This document shows positions 11,613-41,749 of a DNA stretch of 64,000 bases, piece by piece. The notes below the pieces were generated by a model. It made no database searches. It saw nothing but the letters and a program-made list of their open reading frames with translations, and was not told the origin of the DNA. A program made the position numbers and the translations under genes. Source of the stretch: Chlorobaculum limnaeum (GTDB taxonomy: Bacteria; Bacteroidota; Chlorobiia; Chlorobiales; Chlorobiaceae). Position 1 is the first letter of the stretch. Each line of letters begins with the position of its first letter. Location: contig NZ_CP017305.1 in the NCBI RefSeq assembly GCF_001747405.1, forward strand, positions 142,001-206,000. The letters run 5' to 3'.

Positions 11613-12836
11613 TTACACCGCCAGCGAATCCCTGTCCCTGAATCCCATCAAATACAAAATCGCGTCGAGGCCTAACGTGGAAATCGATTGCCGCGCCGTT
11701 TCGCGCACGATCGGCTTGGCGCGGAAGGCGATGCCGAGTCCGGCCTTGCCGAGCATGGGGAGGTCGTTGGCGCCGTCGCCGACCGCGACGGTCTGTTCGA
11801 GCCGGATGTTCTCCGTGGCAGCGATCTGTTCGAGCAACTCGGCTTTGCGCTTGCCGTCCACCACCTGGCCGATCACCTGGCCGGTCATTTTGCCCTCCAC
11901 GATCTCCAGCTCGTTGGCGAAGACGTAGTCGATGTTGAGCTTTTTCTGCAAATGGCGCCCGAAGTAGGTGAAGCCGCCGGAGAGGATGGCGGTTTTGAAG
12001 CCGAGGCGGTGCAGGTTGTGGAATAGGTGCTCGGCCCCCTCGGTGAGTTGCAGCCGCTCGGCCACCGTTTGCAGCGTCGATTCCTCCAGCCCCGCCAGCG
12101 TCGCGACGCGCTTTTTCAGGCTCTCGGTGAAGTCGAGTTCGCCGCGCATCGCCTGCTCGGTGATTGCCGACACCAGCTCGCCCGATCCCGCCTCTTTCGC
12201 CAGTTCGTCGATCACCTCTGACGTGATCAGCGTCGAGTCCATGTCGAACACCACGAGCCGCCGCGTCCGCCGGAAGATGTTGTCCTCCTGATAGGCGATG
12301 TCGATGCCGAGGCTGTCGGTGATGTCGAGCATCTCCGCGCGGAACCGCTCTTCGCTTTTCGGCGCTCCCCGGAGCGAGAATTCGATGCACGCCTTGGTGC
12401 AGCCGGGGTCGCGCTCGTCTTCGAGCGGCAGGCGACCGGAGAGGCGGTTGATGGTGTCGATGTTGAAGCCGTGGCTGGCAACCAGCGTAGTGACCCGTTC
12501 GAGATGTTCCGACGTGATTTTTCTGCCGAGCAGCGAGAGCAGGTAGCGCGGCTTGCCCTGTTCGCCGACCCATTTGTGGTAGTCGCGCGTGGTGATGGGC
12601 GAAAAATCGATCTCCAGCTTGAGCGTGTGCGCCGTGTAGAGCAGGTCTTTCAGGATCGGCGCGGAGGCGGACTCCTTCGGCACCTCGATGAGCATTCCGA
12701 GCGAGAGGTGGTTGTGAATGACCGACTGGCCGATGTCGAGCACCGGCACGTCGTATCGCGCAAGCACTTCGGTGATCTTGGAGGTCAGGCCCGGCTTGTC
12801 CGGCCCGGAAATGTTGATAAGCAGCAGTTCGCGCAT
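11613..12836 (-). CDS. serB: Phosphoserine phosphatase with N-terminal ACT domains
   Basis: Removes phosphate from L-phosphoserine in the last step of serine synthesis. In the 407 residues an ACT-type regulatory region comes first (MRELLLINISGPDKPGLTSKI, about 1-85, with a second related segment near 98-180). It is followed by a HAD phosphatase core with the nucleophile motif DMDST (198-202), LSGGFTYF (motif II) and GDGANDLPML (motif III). Length is typical of the ACT-fused SerB type. Its start faces the accessory TIR locus, 300 bp away. Confidence 0.95.
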   Translation of the reverse strand: MRELLLINISGPDKPGLTSKITEVLARYDVPVLDIGQSVIHNHLSLGMLIEVPKESASAPILKDLLYTAHTLKLEIDFSPITTRDYHKWVGEQGKPRYLLSLLGRKITSEHLERVTTLVASHGFNIDTINRLSGRLPLEDERDPGCTKACIEFSLRGAPKSEERFRAEMLDITDSLGIDIAYQEDNIFRRTRRLVVFDMDSTLITSEVIDELAKEAGSGELVSAITEQAMRGELDFTESLKKRVATLAGLEESTLQTVAERLQLTEGAEHLFHNLHRLGFKTAILSGGFTYFGRHLQKKLNIDYVFANELEIVEGKMTGQVIGQVVDGKRKAELLEQIAATENIRLEQTVAVGDGANDLPMLGKAGLGIAFRAKPIVRETARQSISTLGLDAILYLMGFRDRDSLAV

Positions 12837-13010
12837 GTGCTGAAGGTGTCGGTTAATCCCTCGTCGAAAGAGGGGGGAGCGGCAAGGCGTTGCCTCGTAA
12901 TGGCTTATGGTGTCGCCCGCTTTACGGGAGAAGCACCGGGAAAGATAGCGTTGTTTCGGGAACCTGCAAAAAGCGGGGGGATGGTGGATGCGGGGGTTGA
13001 TTTGGTGTTT

Positions 13011-13038
13011 TTGACGAAGTGCGAATGTTGTTTAAATT
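13011..13038 (+). promoter_or_regulatory. Putative promoter of the TIR gene, shared with the 39.5-kb locus
   Basis: TTGACG (13011-13016), a 16-bp spacer and TAAATT (13033-13038) fit a sigma-70-type promoter. The block 12996-13039 matches 39339-39382 at 38 of 44 bases, spacer included, so it is homologous rather than merely consensus-like. Confidence 0.6.
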
Positions 13039-13055
13039 TTTATAAAAGCAGATTA

Positions 13056-13092
13056 CTAATACAGAAATAAACCTTTTTCTTTTTTGTATTAG
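13056..13092 (+). promoter_or_regulatory. Leader hairpin upstream of the TIR gene
   Basis: CTAATACA (13056-13063) pairs perfectly with TGTATTAG (13085-13092) around a 21-nt loop rich in T. It lies between the promoter and the ATG. The 39.5-kb locus has a hairpin of different sequence in the matching position, and both are followed within a few bases by GATCAG. Confidence 0.5.
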
Positions 13093-13139
13093 GAAGATCA
13101 GTCTGAACTTTGTTAGAACGGCAACCCCACCGAGTCTTC

Positions 13140-14009
13140 ATGCGACCCATTGAACGCCTTAACCTGATTGATCGAATTGGTCGCGAGTTACAAGCTCGCA
13201 TGAGCTATTCCGATATTGACATTTTCCTCAAGGGCTTTGGTATCGATACCACCAAAACTACCTCCAGTACTAACAGCAAGTGGATCTATGTTAAGGAACT
13301 TCTGGGGGATGCAGTCGATGCCGTCGTATTGCGGATTGCTGATGAACTGGAAATTGCACACGGACACACGGTTGTCGGAGGTATCGTACAGGAAGAGAGC
13401 CGCTTCTGGATGCCTGGTTACTTTCGTTTATTCATCAGTCATTTATCCGAGCACAAACTGAAGGCTACAGCCCTGAAAGAGGCACTCCGAAAGTACGCAG
13501 TATCTTGCTTCGTCGCCCATGAGGACATTAACCCTACGCTCGAATGGCAAGGCGAAATTGAGAAAGCGCTTGCTTCAATGGACGCACTTGCCGCGATCCT
13601 TATGCAGGGGTTTCACGATAGCAAATGGACAGATCAGGAAGTTGGTTTTGCTCTTGGCCGGGGCGTTCTGGTCGTTCCACTTCGAAACGGCTTAGACCCG
13701 TACGGGTTCATTGGTAAGGTTCAAGGTGTTCCGTGTCAAGGCAGAACAGTCGCTCAGGTTGCAGCATCAATATTTCATGCGCTTGCAAGCAACAGACTGA
13801 CCAAGAATAAGTTGGCAACAGCGCTCGTCGATCAGATTGTCGCCTCCCCAGTCGTTGAGTCTGGGCTCCAGTTGTTCGGTAGCTTAAAGCAGATCGAGAC
13901 TCTTGCACAGATCCATCTGGAGCGCTTGCGCGACAACATTGGCACAAATCAAATTCTTACAAGTGATGCATCATTCGTTAAAGAGTTGAATTTATTTCGG
14001 GTCTGCTGA
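13140..14009 (+). CDS. TIR-domain protein, 3' end replaced by an insertion sequence
   Basis: A probable immune-type effector. I chose the ATG at 13140; a TTG at 13110 is possible. Residues 1-75 form an N-terminal helical domain (IERLNLIDRIGREL) of unknown family. Residues about 94-220 resemble a TIR domain: FRLFISHLS (box 1), FVAHEDINPTLEW, then SKWTDQEVGFALG, where Glu167 is at the place of the NADase catalytic glutamate. The helical C-terminus runs into the insertion sequence, so the last codons (RVC-stop) come from the element. Without it, the frame continues to a stop at 15701 (310 residues). Base composition is lower in GC than the neighbours. TIR proteins often act in phage defence by consuming NAD; that is inference here. 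Confidence 0.75.
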   Translation: MRPIERLNLIDRIGRELQARMSYSDIDIFLKGFGIDTTKTTSSTNSKWIYVKELLGDAVDAVVLRIADELEIAHGHTVVGGIVQEESRFWMPGYFRLFISHLSEHKLKATALKEALRKYAVSCFVAHEDINPTLEWQGEIEKALASMDALAAILMQGFHDSKWTDQEVGFALGRGVLVVPLRNGLDPYGFIGKVQGVPCQGRTVAQVAASIFHALASNRLTKNKLATALVDQIVASPVVESGLQLFGSLKQIETLAQIHLERLRDNIGTNQILTSDASFVKELNLFRVC

Positions 14010-15621
14010 ATAATGGTTAAATTGTTTTATGGTAATGAATTAAGCGGTATTTTTGTATCTTGAATGCAAGGAAAAGCCTGAAAAAGCCCCAAAAACCCTG
14101 CACCTCGATACCGCCGATTCATGTACCAGCCGAAGTTTCAGCAGCTCACGTTCGAAAATTTCCATCTGCCGTTTGGTGGTAAACTCGATCCGGAAAACCG
14201 GTGGGTGAAGCTCGCCGACGTAATTCCCTGGCACGTCGCCGAGACGATGTATGCCAAAAACTTCATGTCGAAACGGGGCGCTCCTGCACTGACGGTTCGC
14301 ATGGCGCTGGGGTCCTTGATTATCAAGGAGAAGCTCGGCCTTTCGGATATCGAGACGGTCGAACAGATCAAGGAGAACCCGTATCTCCAGTTCTTTATCG
14401 GTCTTGAAACGTACCAGCATGCAGCGCCCTTCGATGCCTCGATGCTGACCCACTTTCGGAAGCGGCTGAAGCATACCGATCTGGCCGCGTTGCAGGAGGA
14501 ACTCCTGCAACGCCATCTGGCTGAAGAGCGCAGGAAGGCTGAGGAAAGGAACCAGAATGACGACGGAGACGGTGGTTCCGGCAACAAGGGCAAACTCATC
14601 GTTGATGCCACCTGCGCACCGGCAGACATCGCCTATCCGACGGATATTGGTCTGCTCAACGAAGCACGGGAAAAGACCGAGAAAATCATCGACCAGTTGT
14701 GTGCCAATGCTCCGCAGGAGTTGGGCAAGCCGAGGACGTATCGCAAGAAGGCCAGGAAAGCGTTTCTCTCGGCAATCATGAAGCGGAACCTGTCGAAAAA
14801 AGCGCTTCGTCGAGCCATTCGCCAGCAGTTGCAGTACATCGGTCGAAACCTGAAGCATATCGAAGCGCTCAGCGCCGCTGTACCGCTGACCGTCCTCTCG
14901 ACAGCGCGGTATCGCGACCTGCTGGTGATCGATGAGCTGTATCGGCAGCAACAGGAAATGTACAAGAGTGACAGGAAGAGCATCAGCGATCGAATCGTCA
15001 GCATCAGCCAGCCCCATGTCAGGCCGATCGTACGGGGCAAGGCCGCAGCCAGGACGGAGTTCGGCATGAAGCTCTCCATCAGCGTCGTCGACGGCATCAG
15101 CCTGCCGGAACGGATGAGCTGGAACGCCTACAACGAAGGCTGCGACCTGGTGCGGGATATCGAGCGATATCGCGAGCGCTACGGGCACTATCCCGAATCA
15201 GTCCATGCCGACAAGATCTACCGGACGCTGGCCAACCGGATGTGGTGCAAGGCACGAGGAATCCGGCTGAGCGGCGTGCCGCTCGGTCGGCCCCCGAAGG
15301 ATGTTGAGAAGAACCGGGCCCGCCGGCGGCAGATCAGGGAAGACGAAGGAGTCCGGAATGCCGTCGAAGGCATGTTCGGTAAGGCGAAGCGCCGATACGG
15401 GCTGGGCCGGGTAATGGCGAGGCTTGCCGAGAGCAGTCTGAGTGTGGTCTCGATCACGTTCCTCGTGATGAACTTGGACCGGCTGCTCGCCGCTCCTTTT
15501 TTGCGCCTGTTTGAATGGCTCCTTTTGGAGCTTGATGTAATCAGAAATTTGTTCGCGTGGTCACCTCCCCGAGCGGCGATTGAGTGCCGCGGGGCGATGG
15601 CTTGAATTCTTCAGCAAACCC
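13999..15621 (+). mobile_element. Complete IS5/IS1182-like insertion sequence with 6-bp target duplication
   Basis: A 1623-bp element. Its left end GGGTCTGCTGAATAAT and the reverse complement of its right end GGGTTTGCTGAAGAAT are imperfect inverted repeats (14 of 16). The target TATTTC is duplicated at 13993-13998 and 15622-15627. It carries a single full-length transposase gene. Intact ends and an exact duplication suggest a recent insertion. The family assignment is from transposase layout only. Confidence 0.9.
14121..15605 (+). CDS. DDE transposase of the IS5/IS1182-like element
   Basis: Cuts and joins DNA at the element ends. The 494 residues begin with an N-terminal domain that includes RMALGSLIIKEKLGLSD and SMLTHFRKRLK. 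The probable DDE triad is Asp in LIVDATCAPAD, Asp in SVHADKIYRT and Glu in AVEGMFGKAKRRYG. The middle carries a variable Arg/Lys-rich insertion typical of IS1182-like enzymes. The frame is intact, so the element may be active. It is the only gene in the insertion sequence. Confidence 0.92.
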   Translation: MYQPKFQQLTFENFHLPFGGKLDPENRWVKLADVIPWHVAETMYAKNFMSKRGAPALTVRMALGSLIIKEKLGLSDIETVEQIKENPYLQFFIGLETYQHAAPFDASMLTHFRKRLKHTDLAALQEELLQRHLAEERRKAEERNQNDDGDGGSGNKGKLIVDATCAPADIAYPTDIGLLNEAREKTEKIIDQLCANAPQELGKPRTYRKKARKAFLSAIMKRNLSKKALRRAIRQQLQYIGRNLKHIEALSAAVPLTVLSTARYRDLLVIDELYRQQQEMYKSDRKSISDRIVSISQPHVRPIVRGKAAARTEFGMKLSISVVDGISLPERMSWNAYNEGCDLVRDIERYRERYGHYPESVHADKIYRTLANRMWCKARGIRLSGVPLGRPPKDVEKNRARRRQIREDEGVRNAVEGMFGKAKRRYGLGRVMARLAESSLSVVSITFLVMNLDRLLAAPFLRLFEWLLLELDVIRNLFAWSPPRAAIECRGAMA

Positions 15622-37802: not shown

Positions 37803-39176
37803 TTACAGCTTTGGCACCTGCGGGTGGCCTTCAAGCGAGGAGAGTGAGCGTTGCAGCATCTCTTCGGGCAGTGGGAAGTCGCTGATCCTGCCCGACATGT
37901 AGGCATCGTAGCCCTGCAAATCCATCAGGCCGTGGCCCGACCAGTTCATCAAAATCACCTTCTCCTTGCCCTCCTCTTTGGCCTGCTTCGCTTCGCGGAT
38001 GGTCTGCGCGATGGCGTGCGAGGTCTCCGGCGCGGGGATGAACCCTTCGGTGTGGGCGAAGAGCAGCGCCGCTTCGTAGCACTCGGTCTGCGGCAGCGCG
38101 GTGGCCTCGATCAGCCCGATGCGCTTGACGTGGCTCACCAGCGGAGCCATGCCGTGGTAGCGCAGGCCGCCTGCGTGGATCGCCGGAGGGATGAAGCGGT
38201 GGCCGAGGCTGTGCATCGGCAGGAGCGGCGTCATTTTCGCTACGTCGCCCGAGTCGTAAACGTACGGCCCCCTCGTCAGCGTCGGGCAGGCCTCCGGCTC
38301 TGTGGCGATCACCCGCACATCCTTGCCGTGAATCTTGTCGCAGATGAACGGGAAGCTGATTCCCGCAAAGTTCGAGCCGCCGCCTGCGCACCCGATGACG
38401 ATGTCCGGGTAGCGCCCGATTTTGTCGAACTGCTTTTTGGCTTCCAGACCGATGATGGTCTGGTGCAGCATCACGTGGTTCAGTACGCTGCCGAGGGCGT
38501 AGCGGGTATCGTCGCGCTCGACCGCCTGCTCGAGGGCTTCGCTGATGGCGATGGCCAGGCTGCCCGGCGTGTCGGGATCCTCTTCGAGCATCTTGCGCCC
38601 GATGGCCGTCAGTGGACTCGGGCTGGGGATGCACTCCGCGCCCCAGGTCTTCATCATGATCTTGCGGAACGGCTTCTGGTCAAAGCTGATGCGCACCATG
38701 AACACCTTGCACTCGATGCCGATCAGCTTGCAGCTCATTGCCAGTGCGCTGCCCCACTGCCCCGCGCCGGTTTCGGTGGTGAGGTACTTGATGCCGAACT
38801 CTCGGTTGTACCACGCCTGCGCCACCGCCGTGTTGGGCTTGTGGCTGCCGGCGGGCGAGACTCCTTCGTTCTTGTAGTAGATTTTGGCCGGAGTGCCGAG
38901 CGCCGCTTCGAGCCGCCGGGCGCGGTAGAGCGGCGATGGCCGCCAGAGTTTGAGGATGCCGAGAATCTCCTCCGGAATATCGATCCAGCGTTCTGTGCTG
39001 ACCTCCTGTTCGATCAGGTTCATCGGAAACACCTGCGCCAGCGCGTCCGGCCCGATCGGCGTCCCGTCCAGCCCCACCGGCGGCGGCATGGGAGTGGGCA
39101 GGTCAGCCTGAATATTGTACCACTGACGGGGCATTTCATCCTCGCTGAGGAGGATTTTGGTAGGCTCTGTACTCAT
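37803..39176 (-). CDS. TrpB2-type tryptophan synthase beta-like enzyme
   Basis: A PLP enzyme of the TrpB2 group, which joins indole (or a related acceptor) to serine. The 457 residues start [21 protein letters not shown]. The PLP lysine is in AGSHKPNTA, and the phosphate-binding loop is [11 protein letters not shown]. TrpB2 proteins are longer at the N-terminus than the TrpA-dependent TrpB1, as seen here. No trpA is nearby, in line with a stand-alone enzyme. Its start faces the 39.5-kb accessory locus. Confidence 0.92.
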
Positions 39177-39353
39177 GCGTGTAATGCTTTGAAGTAAGAG
39201 AAAAGAGGGCGTTGGCGGCTCTCATGGCCGGGATGTGTGGTGGCCATTATCAAAGGTAGGTAGAGCGCGGGCGGATTGCAAAGGTTGGGTGTGGGGAATC
39301 GGTGGGAGGGGGAAAAATGGTGGGGGAGGTGACAGCGGGATGATCTGGTATTT

Positions 39354-39381
39354 TTGACGAACTGCGAATGTTGTGTACATT
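39354..39381 (+). promoter_or_regulatory. Putative promoter of the NTPase-like gene, shared with the TIR locus
   Basis: TTGACG (39354-39359), a 16-bp spacer and TACATT (39376-39381). The spacer is nearly the same as at the TIR locus (TGCGAATGTTGT in both), which points to a common origin. Confidence 0.6.
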
Positions 39382-39390
39382 TTGAGAAAG

Positions 39391-39419
39391 CTGCCGTCTG
39401 TGTTTTCTCAGTCCGGCAG
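39391..39419 (+). promoter_or_regulatory. Leader hairpin upstream of the NTPase-like gene
   Basis: CTGCCG (39391-39396) pairs with CGGCAG (39414-39419), with further CTG/CAG pairs inside. It is unlike the 13.1-kb hairpin in sequence but sits in the same place, again next to GATCAG (39417-39422). Confidence 0.5.
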
Positions 39420-39474
39420 ATCAGCCGAAACATTGTAGGTACGAAAAAGACCATCATCATGGAGAAATCACCCA

Positions 39475-41028
39475 ATGAGTTCCAATGATAAAAAACTGAC
39501 AGCCCTTCGCCAGAAGATCACCGAAAGCCTACGCATACAACGCGACAGTTCAGAGGCAGTCCCTTACATTGATGCTGCCAACATTCTTGCTGATGTTTGC
39601 GCTCGACAAAACCACGCGATTTTTGCAAGACGCGGATGTGATAAGACGCTACTTCTACATCACTCAGGTCGGTTGCTTGATAAATCGATCCGAACCGTTT
39701 ACCTAAATTGCGAAGATTTTAAAAGACACTCGTTTCCTAACGTACTCATTGAAATTCTTGATGCTCTTTTCCGTGAACTCGAACGGCATCTTACTGGTTG
39801 GTTTGGAAAAAAGAAGCGGTCACGTGAACTTATAAAACAGATCCGCGCAGAACTTTTAAAGCTCAAAAGTTCTGCTGATTCACTTGAAGAATCTGTTCGA
39901 AATATAACAAGCGCAGAACAAAGCACGTCTGCCGAGGCAGCGCTTGGCGTAACCATCAATGATGTGTCTGCGAAGATCGGAGATTCTATCGGAGCCAAGT
40001 CAAAGACTGAGACCGAGCGTAGCTTTAAGGTTCGTAGCGATAAATTACGAGAGTTGGACATGTGGTTGCCGCGCTTAAAGGAGCAAGTGCGTGAGTTTTT
40101 CGAGGTATCCAATTCTGTTAAAGCTGTATTTCTTCAGATAGACGACTTCTATCACCTAAAGAAGACCGATCAGCCCTTTGTCATTGACTACATCCATCGT
40201 CTCTGCAAAGACGTCCCGCTTTACTTCAAGATTGCAACACTACGACATGCTTCGTCGCTATACATCGACCGTGACGGACAACCCTTTGGTGCCCAGGAAC
40301 GACATGATTATCAGCCTATCAATATTGACTACACATTTGCAGATTTTGTGCGAACACGCGATCAGAATCGGCGAATATTTCACGAGTTCGGAAAGTTGGT
40401 AGGACTGAGATCGGATGATATTGACGGCCTTTTTAAGGGTGAAGGCTTTGACCGGTTAGTCATGGCCGGAGGTGGTGTTCCGCGCGACACACTTTCGTTA
40501 TTCCTTGAGGTTCTCAGCTCAGTTCAATCAAACGGCGGAGACAAAATCGGAAAAGATGACGTGCGAGTAATGAGTCGATCGAATTTTGAGCGCCGTATAG
40601 AAGAGTTGAAACATGACTCAGAAGGCGGAGAACAAGATGTTCTGATGCGCGGAATTCATGTTTTTCGCACCTTTTGCCTATCGAAGAAGTCCAACGCCTT
40701 CGTTATTGCAGAGCAGGCTCTTCAACAGCGTGATGAATTTCGTGATCTAGTAAACCGCCTTCTTGACTATCGAATTATTCACAACGCTGGTGCTGCAATA
40801 ACCCACAAGTCAAAAACGGGAACGTATCAGGCTTTTTCTATTGATATAGGATGCTACGCGAATTTTCGGAAGCTTGATGGTCGTTTCGTTGAGATTGATC
40901 TTTCAGAAAAAGATGCAAAAGAAAGATTGCGTTCAGCGCCAGTGTTCGATTCCTCCGATTTTGAAACGTTGTTTGGGTCTACACCGAAAGACATTGAGTT
41001 GGCGTTGATGAATGAAGTTGTTACCTAA
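39475..41028 (+). CDS. NTPase-like protein of unknown function (degenerate P-loop)
   Basis: A 517-residue cytoplasmic protein that I cannot place in a named family. GGAGA upstream supports the ATG at 39475. A P-loop-like motif, ARRGCDKT (51-58), has Asp where the family has the last Gly before the Lys. A Walker B-like segment is AVFLQIDD (217-224). Between them is a charged, coiled-coil-like stretch (about 110-205). The layout recalls ORC/Cdc6- or STAND-like ATPases. Codon use is AT-richer than the neighbours. It is followed by a toxin-antitoxin pair and shares its upstream region with the TIR gene, which hints at a defence role. Confidence 0.75.
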   Translation: MSSNDKKLTALRQKITESLRIQRDSSEAVPYIDAANILADVCARQNHAIFARRGCDKTLLLHHSGRLLDKSIRTVYLNCEDFKRHSFPNVLIEILDALFRELERHLTGWFGKKKRSRELIKQIRAELLKLKSSADSLEESVRNITSAEQSTSAEAALGVTINDVSAKIGDSIGAKSKTETERSFKVRSDKLRELDMWLPRLKEQVREFFEVSNSVKAVFLQIDDFYHLKKTDQPFVIDYIHRLCKDVPLYFKIATLRHASSLYIDRDGQPFGAQERHDYQPINIDYTFADFVRTRDQNRRIFHEFGKLVGLRSDDIDGLFKGEGFDRLVMAGGGVPRDTLSLFLEVLSSVQSNGGDKIGKDDVRVMSRSNFERRIEELKHDSEGGEQDVLMRGIHVFRTFCLSKKSNAFVIAEQALQQRDEFRDLVNRLLDYRIIHNAGAAITHKSKTGTYQAFSIDIGCYANFRKLDGRFVEIDLSEKDAKERLRSAPVFDSSDFETLFGSTPKDIELALMNEVVT

Positions 41029-41076
41029 CCTCATCATTCACACGAACTGATGCCAAACGTTAAATGTAAATGCTAT

Positions 41077-41292
41077 ATGGAATCTGTAGAGGAACTGGCG
41101 AAAAAAGCTATTGATCTCGATCCTAAGGAGAGAATTCGGCTGGTGGAGGCTATTTTGTACAGCCTCGATAAGCCTGATCCTGAAATTGAGAAAAGCTGGA
41201 TAGCAGAATCTGAGGCTCGTTATGATGCGTTCAAGCGAGGGGAGCTTCAGGCTGAGGATTGGGATAAAATCAGAAAAAGGTACGAACGTTGA
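41077..41292 (+). CDS. Antitoxin-like small protein (addiction module component family)
   Basis: Antitoxin of a two-gene module. From the ATG at 41077 it has 71 residues (MESVEELAKKAIDLDPKERIRL), matching the putative addiction-module component group of short helical proteins. An in-frame ATG at 41050 would add nine residues. The C-terminal part (EAEDWDKIRKRYER-like) is charged and probably binds the toxin. Its TGA overlaps the toxin's start, so translation is coupled. Confidence 0.85.
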   Translation: MESVEELAKKAIDLDPKERIRLVEAILYSLDKPDPEIEKSWIAESEARYDAFKRGELQAEDWDKIRKRYER

Positions 41293-41582
41293 AGGCCCGG
41301 TTCATAGCGCCAGCTTCTCTTGAGTTGGATGAAGCTGTGATGTACTACGAGCATCAGTTGCCGGGTTTGGGGTATCGCTTTTTTAAAGAAACATCGGCTT
41401 CCATAGATCGGATTTTATTTATGCCCGAGGCATGGCCGAAAGTAGGTGAACGAACAAGGCGATGCATGTTGAAAGGTTTTCCATATGCTCTGTTCTACGT
41501 GAAAGAGAATACGGAAATTCTTGTCACTGCGGTGGCTCATCTTCACAGGGATCCTAAGCACTACTGTGATCGGATTGAATAG
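41289..41582 (+). CDS. RelE/ParE-family toxin
   Basis: Toxin partner of the preceding gene: 97 residues with a TTG start at 41289 that overlaps the antitoxin stop. It has the ParE-type opening (KARFIAPASLELDEAVMYYE), then GLGYRFFKETSASIDRI, MPEAWPKV and the C-terminal LKGFPYALFYV and VAHLHRDP strands. ParE-type toxins act on gyrase or, for RelE-type, on translating ribosomes; the target here is not known. Intact in frame. Confidence 0.88.
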   Translation: MKARFIAPASLELDEAVMYYEHQLPGLGYRFFKETSASIDRILFMPEAWPKVGERTRRCMLKGFPYALFYVKENTEILVTAVAHLHRDPKHYCDRIE

Positions 41583-41660: not shown

Positions 41661-41749
41661 TGGTGCCGAAGGCGGGAATCGAACCCGCACGTCCATTGCT
41701 GAACACGGGATTTTAAGTCCCGGGCGTCTACCAGTTCCGCCACTTCGGC
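41661..41749 (-). tRNA. tRNA-Leu (anticodon UAA)
   Basis: Read on the minus strand: acceptor GCCGAAG with CTTCGGC, an anticodon loop CTTAAAA within a GGGA/TCCC stem (anticodon UAA), a long variable arm as in class II tRNAs, and a T-arm with GGTTCGATTCC. The CCA end is encoded (41661-41663). tRNA-Leu genes are common integration sites; this one is intact. Confidence 0.96.

Follow-up and report, generated by a model that had tools for sequence, protein, structure and literature searches.

Two related leaders in front of unrelated genes

The window analysed here, a 64-kb stretch of the Chlorobaculum limnaeum chromosome, raises the question of why two unrelated, defence-like genes, coding for a TIR-domain protein and a P-loop NTPase, are preceded by related leaders. 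Positions 12996-13039 and 39339-39382 are identical, without gaps, at 38 of 44 bases, while random 44-mers (n = 400) matched at most 22-29 bases at any other position of the window, with a single exception of 36. GATCAG occurs in the downstream block of both the TIR (~13097) and the NTPase leader (~39418). A whole-leader search revealed that each leader is made up of two separate repeats, a promoter block (A) and a part containing the hairpin and GATCAG (B), which travel apart. The promoter-like core TTTTTGACGAANTGCGAATGTTGTNTANATT of block A (~31 bp) is present without mismatches at 13008-13038 and 39351-39381. It occurs in four copies in the 2.8-Mb genome (at 155.0, 181.4, 2302.5 and 2309.6 kb), and a pattern search for further copies in the family identified 25 in 13 of the 86 Chlorobiaceae genomes, with no matches to the reversed control pattern in the same 86 genomes. 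Together with the 38/44 match, these counts indicate that the similarity reported in the first-pass annotation is genuine and extends past the window.

The first copy of A (TTGACG-N16-TAAATT, plus strand; model R2 match 12998-13042) points away from serB (11613-12836, minus strand; Pfam ACT/HAD), while the second (plus strand; R2 match 39341-39388) points away from a trpB2-like PALP gene (37803-39176, minus strand; Pfam PALP). Both neighbours are core genes, with orthologues of serB in 19 and matches to the trpB2-like gene in all 21 of the 21 genus genomes, and form the left edges of hotspots 1 and 2, respectively; a tRNA gene (41664-41749, minus strand; Rfam RF00005) forms the right edge of the latter. 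A marks the left boundary of orthologous hotspots that adjoin trpB2, serB, aroA and asd and is oriented into the hotspot, and the gene held at the trpB2-adjacent site differs between nearly all species of the genus. The nearness of the two leaders to serB and trpB2 thus reflects orthologous insertion hotspots. The genes behind A copies include DUF4160/DUF2442 and Unstab_antitox/ParE pairs, PIN, Fic, TIR and SduA. The model of A gave few matches outside the genus, and wherever such a distant copy has a clear downstream gene, this encodes DUF4160 or DUF2442. A was probably in origin the promoter, perhaps with an operator, of a DUF4160-DUF2442 toxin-antitoxin-like unit, to which units of attI and cassette were subsequently joined.

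Several further features were observed at these hotspots. At the aroA site of G004 (L250:3011-6999), a full Gabija pair (GajA, E = 3e-287; GajB, E = 8e-236) follows A and toxin-antitoxin genes. A XerA/IntI-like tyrosine recombinase gene, split in two frames, lies beside an aroA copy of A (L010:1990-3171), and other species retain degenerate 5' remnants of such a gene at this site (L248, L250 and L259). In G015 (L077, L078), serB adjoins an A site and is found in two overlapping frames, while the trpB2 hotspot of G007 (L081) contains a different, by eye TIR-like gene with neither promoter A nor attI.

Block B corresponds to the attI site of Chlorobiaceae integrons

Integrons have previously been reported in Chlorobi (PMC2426708, PMC9024848). 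Integron integrases (IntI) scoring above the TIGR02249 cut-off (293-487 bits) are encoded in 15 of the 86 family genomes, while a model of B gave 212 matches (summed from the table) in 59 of the 86, with a maximum of twelve per genome and eight in C. limnaeum. At the intI loci examined, a strong or divergent B copy follows the intI stop codon directly and precedes the first cassette, with the exception of a partial gene in G029 and of G002, whose contig ends within this region; divergent copies, identified partly by eye, are those in G053, G066, G079, G084, G083, G052, G041 and G051. The cassettes behind intI-linked B carry canonical attC sites, such as GCCTAACAAGGCG...GGACGTTAGGC. Alignment of 52 B copies showed conservation of ~90% or more through ...GATCAGTCTAAACATTG^TT (CATTG^TT), which becomes partial over RRRY and then falls to background. 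The integron crossover point is G^TTRRRY, and attI1 is laid out as CCCTAAA ... GTTRRRY, in the order L-spacer-R (PMC12901181). The right end of B, TCTAAAC-ATT-GTTAGGC, has the same layout. On the basis of its position next to intI, conservation that ends at the crossover and the L-spacer-R end, B can be assigned as the attI of the integrons of this family. The block with the hairpin and GATCAG common to both leaders represents the right half of this attI.

The last intI codons (GGHGVKSPVD) are retained in front of several orphan attI copies. No match to the attI core was found in viral contigs, plasmids or phages. The hairpin block was also considered as a standard attC and rejected, since its ends lack the RYYYAAC/GTTRRRY arms. 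One class of orphan attI (L168, L170-L173, L175-L177, L181, L192, L199 and L205) shares ~190 nt of common, non-intI sequence upstream at unrelated loci. Directly behind an attI of G052 (L237:4053-4111), a 57-nt delta-attI unit, TTATGCAG...CAATG, is bounded on both sides by a G^TT crossover point and constitutes a cassette of truncated attI without an ORF.

Truncated attI sites in the window and the C. limnaeum genome

Model R1 was trained partly on copies from promoter-A loci, so that its E-values at these loci are circular; the independent test there is model R3, trained on 33 attI copies of which none derives from a promoter-A locus. R3 matches the delta-attI of the TIR leader at 13056-13119 (plus strand; 58.2 bits, E = 2.9e-9), with the crossover G^TT at 13112-13114. 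The delta-attI of the NTPase leader (39378-39442, plus strand; 28 bits, E = 0.0046) aligns to attI copies and is strongly decayed, its crossover core at 39435 reading GTA in place of GTT. R3 also matches the leader of an SduA gene (E = 0.002; L009:3999-4064) and those at the trpB2 sites of G002, G003 and G014, and all eleven of its matches in 213 kb sit behind promoter-A copies. An attI relic was also suspected in the DUF4160-type leaders, which have CTTTTTTCTGAATC in common, and did not reach significance with R3. The junction of A with the right half of attI is not located at a G^TT point.

The eight attI-derived sites in C. limnaeum precede three TIR genes, the NTPase gene, the SduA gene and two unknowns, the remaining site having no co-oriented ORF of at least 60 aa. 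At the third A site (L009:2584-4064; 2309.6-2311.1 kb), an ISL3-type insertion sequence is situated between A and the delta-attI, which is followed by the Shedu (SduA) gene. In terms of the parts of a complete integron, both window loci contain an attI with a G^TTRRRY core like that of the intI-linked site of relatives (GTT altered to GTA in the NTPase copy); promoter-like block A lies directly upstream of it and may act as the Pc promoter, and no intI is found beside either site. No IntI scoring above the TIGR02249 cut-off is encoded in the C. limnaeum genome (G000), the best match (108 bits) being a XerA-like recombinase. The sites in this genome are orphan platforms, given the absence of the integrase.

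Probable captured genes and their attC sites

Of 51 attI copies, 38 are followed by a co-oriented start codon no more than 120 nt from their 3' end, as against 8.9% of random positions. A strict canonical attC was identified behind five of 37 attI-following genes and none of 190 control genes (Fisher p = 9e-5), at a threshold chosen after the scores had been seen and with a detector tuned over successive versions; its loosest setting is unspecific, with ten of the 190 controls detected at score 14. The strict attC sites include those at the C. limnaeum attI sites at 588 and 1722 kb, and a further one was recognised by eye (AGCTAAC...GTTAGCG) at the 2172-kb gene of this genome.

The NTPase gene (39475-41028, plus strand), which shows a weak ORC-CDC6-like Pfam match, ends in a putative shrunken attC (41023-41065, plus strand) with an R'' of ACCTAAC, in which the TAA stop codon is contained, and an R' of GTTAAAT ~30 nt later. 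It has no close homologue elsewhere in the family, and its relatives (46-85% identical) are mostly from Proteobacteria and also from Acidobacteria, Bacteroidota and Phycisphaerales. The closest of these (L277, Burkholderiaceae, 85% identical over its length) has a complete attC end, ACCTAACCCATCATTCCACGG...CAGACGTTAAGC, with the stop codon in R'', as has, by eye, a relative from Dokdonella. The attC in the window is homologous to that of L277 and looks like a shrunken form of it, and the NTPase gene appears to be an integron cassette. An Unstab_antitox/ParE-like toxin-antitoxin pair (41050-41582, plus strand; Pfam) follows the cassette.

The TIR-domain gene (13140-14009, plus strand; likely start ATG 13140; Pfam TIR_2, E = 5.9e-12) gave only distant TIR matches in the others of the 86 family genomes, and the weak ThsB and SAVED-TIR matches of the encoded protein did not identify Thoeris or another named TIR defence system. 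No recognisable attC was found behind it in the attC search, so that the attI-derived site is the feature that points to a cassette origin. Transposase-like and core genes make up the ORFs that follow. The ORF directly behind the TIR gene (14121-15605), by eye transposase-like, may have removed or displaced the attC. Similarly, no attC was detectable behind the SduA gene, which is assigned by PADLOC with E = 1e-153.

In the genes scanned behind attI copies, the Pfam domains comprise TIR, HNH, Mrr and Eco29kI restriction enzymes, HsdM, PD-(D/E)XK nuclease, KAP and OLD-like ATPases and, as a weak match, SMODS synthetase; many of the genes are unknowns. TIR domains were found in five of the ten genes scanned first, which had been selected in part by eye on account of their TIR starts. 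By our own count, ~13 of 30 scanned genes encode domains that are frequent in phage-defence systems, while the remaining cargo is unknown or unrelated (DsrE, peptidases). The first-pass annotation had noted that TIR and NTPase proteins occur in phage-defence systems, and the captured genes may protect against phage.

Alternative explanations for the common leader

The first-pass annotation had interpreted the leader as carrying a structure-conserved hairpin, possibly for joint control of the two genes. Both leader hairpins are indeed foldable as single strands (z of -2.6 for the TIR and -1.4 for the NTPase leader), although this is weak evidence, with the strong stem of the TIR copy not being that of the NTPase copy. 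Compensatory change is not supported for any pair of the family alignment, where double changes number 0 and 1, like those of shuffles, and the Rfam scan of the window returned two tRNAs and nothing else. Downstream, the leaders resemble each other more in sequence, that of the right half of attI, than in structure. That the leader would be a structured 5' UTR or regulatory RNA controlling an accessory-gene regulon, for which the conserved promoter spacer, the foldable leader and the placement of copies ahead of many accessory genes might speak, is very unlikely, since its hairpins lack compensatory changes, and a stand-alone RNA leader was rejected for the same reason; its conservation also ends at the integrase crossover and the same block adjoins intI. 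Joint control through such a structure is likewise not borne out, the hairpin block being an integrase recombination site. The annotation had also proposed that the block is part of the promoters of serB and trpB2, both divergently oriented to it, which would account for its equal distance (~170 bp) from both start codons. This is extremely unlikely, as A faces away from both genes, occurs in the same form at aroA and asd, is found elsewhere as well and precedes DUF4160/DUF2442 genes in other genera, while several orthologous serB and trpB2 loci are devoid of the block.

Full B copies of ~185 nt with 14-bp inverted ends are dispersed in the genomes and contigs often break at them, as would be expected if the block were a transposable repeat, MITE-like or of another kind, that is bounded by terminal inverted repeats (TTTAGACTGATCTG ... 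CAGATCAGTCTAAA), by chance came to lie upstream of genes and brought promoters. The linkage to intI makes this very unlikely: in many genomes the block is found constantly at the 3' side of intI, immediately next to it, and intI 3' ends precede several orphan copies. The copies are, furthermore, strictly oriented toward a start codon, their conservation stops at G^TT and attC sites lie behind the genes. A stronger but still rather unlikely alternative is that promoter A defines the sites, as the promoter/operator of toxin-antitoxin genes at hotspots where genes are swapped by homologous recombination between the flanks, the attI remnant being a passenger. The flanks are orthologous and many A copies without attI precede DUF4160/DUF2442 or Unstab_antitox genes; however, at ~7 A loci the attI remnant is located exactly between A and the gene, and the NTPase gene has an attC of its own. 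Loci that had already formed may nevertheless have spread between strains by homologous recombination. What endures from the first-pass interpretation is a mobile cassette type, here an integron with unrelated defence-like genes behind its sites, while the conserved hairpin, the joint control and the serB/trpB2 promoter do not.

Probable integrase-less capture sites and known integron classes

The two leaders are very probably leftovers of integron gene-capture sites, a repeat dispersed among green sulfur bacteria that here has lost its integrase, each with a different captured defence-like gene. The block is the same element as the intI-linked attI, its conservation stops at the crossover, and canonical attC sites occur behind several orphan-attI genes, the NTPase gene likewise terminating in an attC. 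Each leader would be a fusion of short promoter A with a truncated attI serving as cassette insertion site, and the TIR, NTPase and SduA genes would each be a cassette inserted at the G^TT of the respective attI-derived site. An IntI presumably made these insertions, acting either in trans or, before it was lost, in cis. The captured gene would now be transcribed from promoter A, and the sites would be fixed unless an IntI returns.

Sedentary chromosomal integrons (PMC2426708, PMC9024848) similarly have an L/R simple-site attI with a G^TTRRRY crossover, attC cassettes and defence-like cargo, but here intI is missing both from the locus and from the whole genome, several sites occur per chromosome with one cassette each, and a site consists of promoter A and the right half of attI only. 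CALINs, defined as clusters of at least two attC sites without an integron integrase (PMC9024848), also comprise cassette-derived genes in the absence of intI, whereas the present sites are attI-derived and have at most one, decayed, attC, with one decayed attC found behind the two window genes. The delta-attI gene cassettes of mobile integrons (PMC12901181) likewise involve a truncated attI away from its usual place, which there replaces the 3' attC in an array, while in the window it precedes the gene and stands alone on the chromosome. The attG sites (PMC12901181) resemble those described here in receiving single cassettes at scattered chromosomal positions, but diverge from classical att sites, whereas the window sites are plain copies of the attI of the family. 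Phage-defence genes have also been described as being stored in integrons (Darracq 2025; Kieffer 2025; reviewed in PMC12409362); cassettes with defence-type genes are similarly present there and are held in arrays and often thought silent, in contrast to the one gene per promoter-bearing site observed here. Scattered integrase-less attI platforms with single cassettes do not fit the In0 and CALIN classes, and no description of a family-wide scatter of such platforms was found in the literature searched, which excluded most subscription journals.

Tentatively, the Chlorobiaceae could possess a distributed integron, in which a single long array is replaced by numerous attI platforms that lack an integrase, have a promoter each and offer space for one expressed first-position cassette; these would be loaded in trans when an intI is present, with a bias to single-gene phage defence. 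Integron surveys target intI and attC and would miss an orphan attI with one cassette. Such sites, with the above 212 matches, are the commonest integron trace in the whole family. The 65-nt attI tag is searchable for new single-gene defence candidates. The orphan attI sites may mark single defence-like genes in an expressed position, which bears on how integron defence cassettes come to be expressed.
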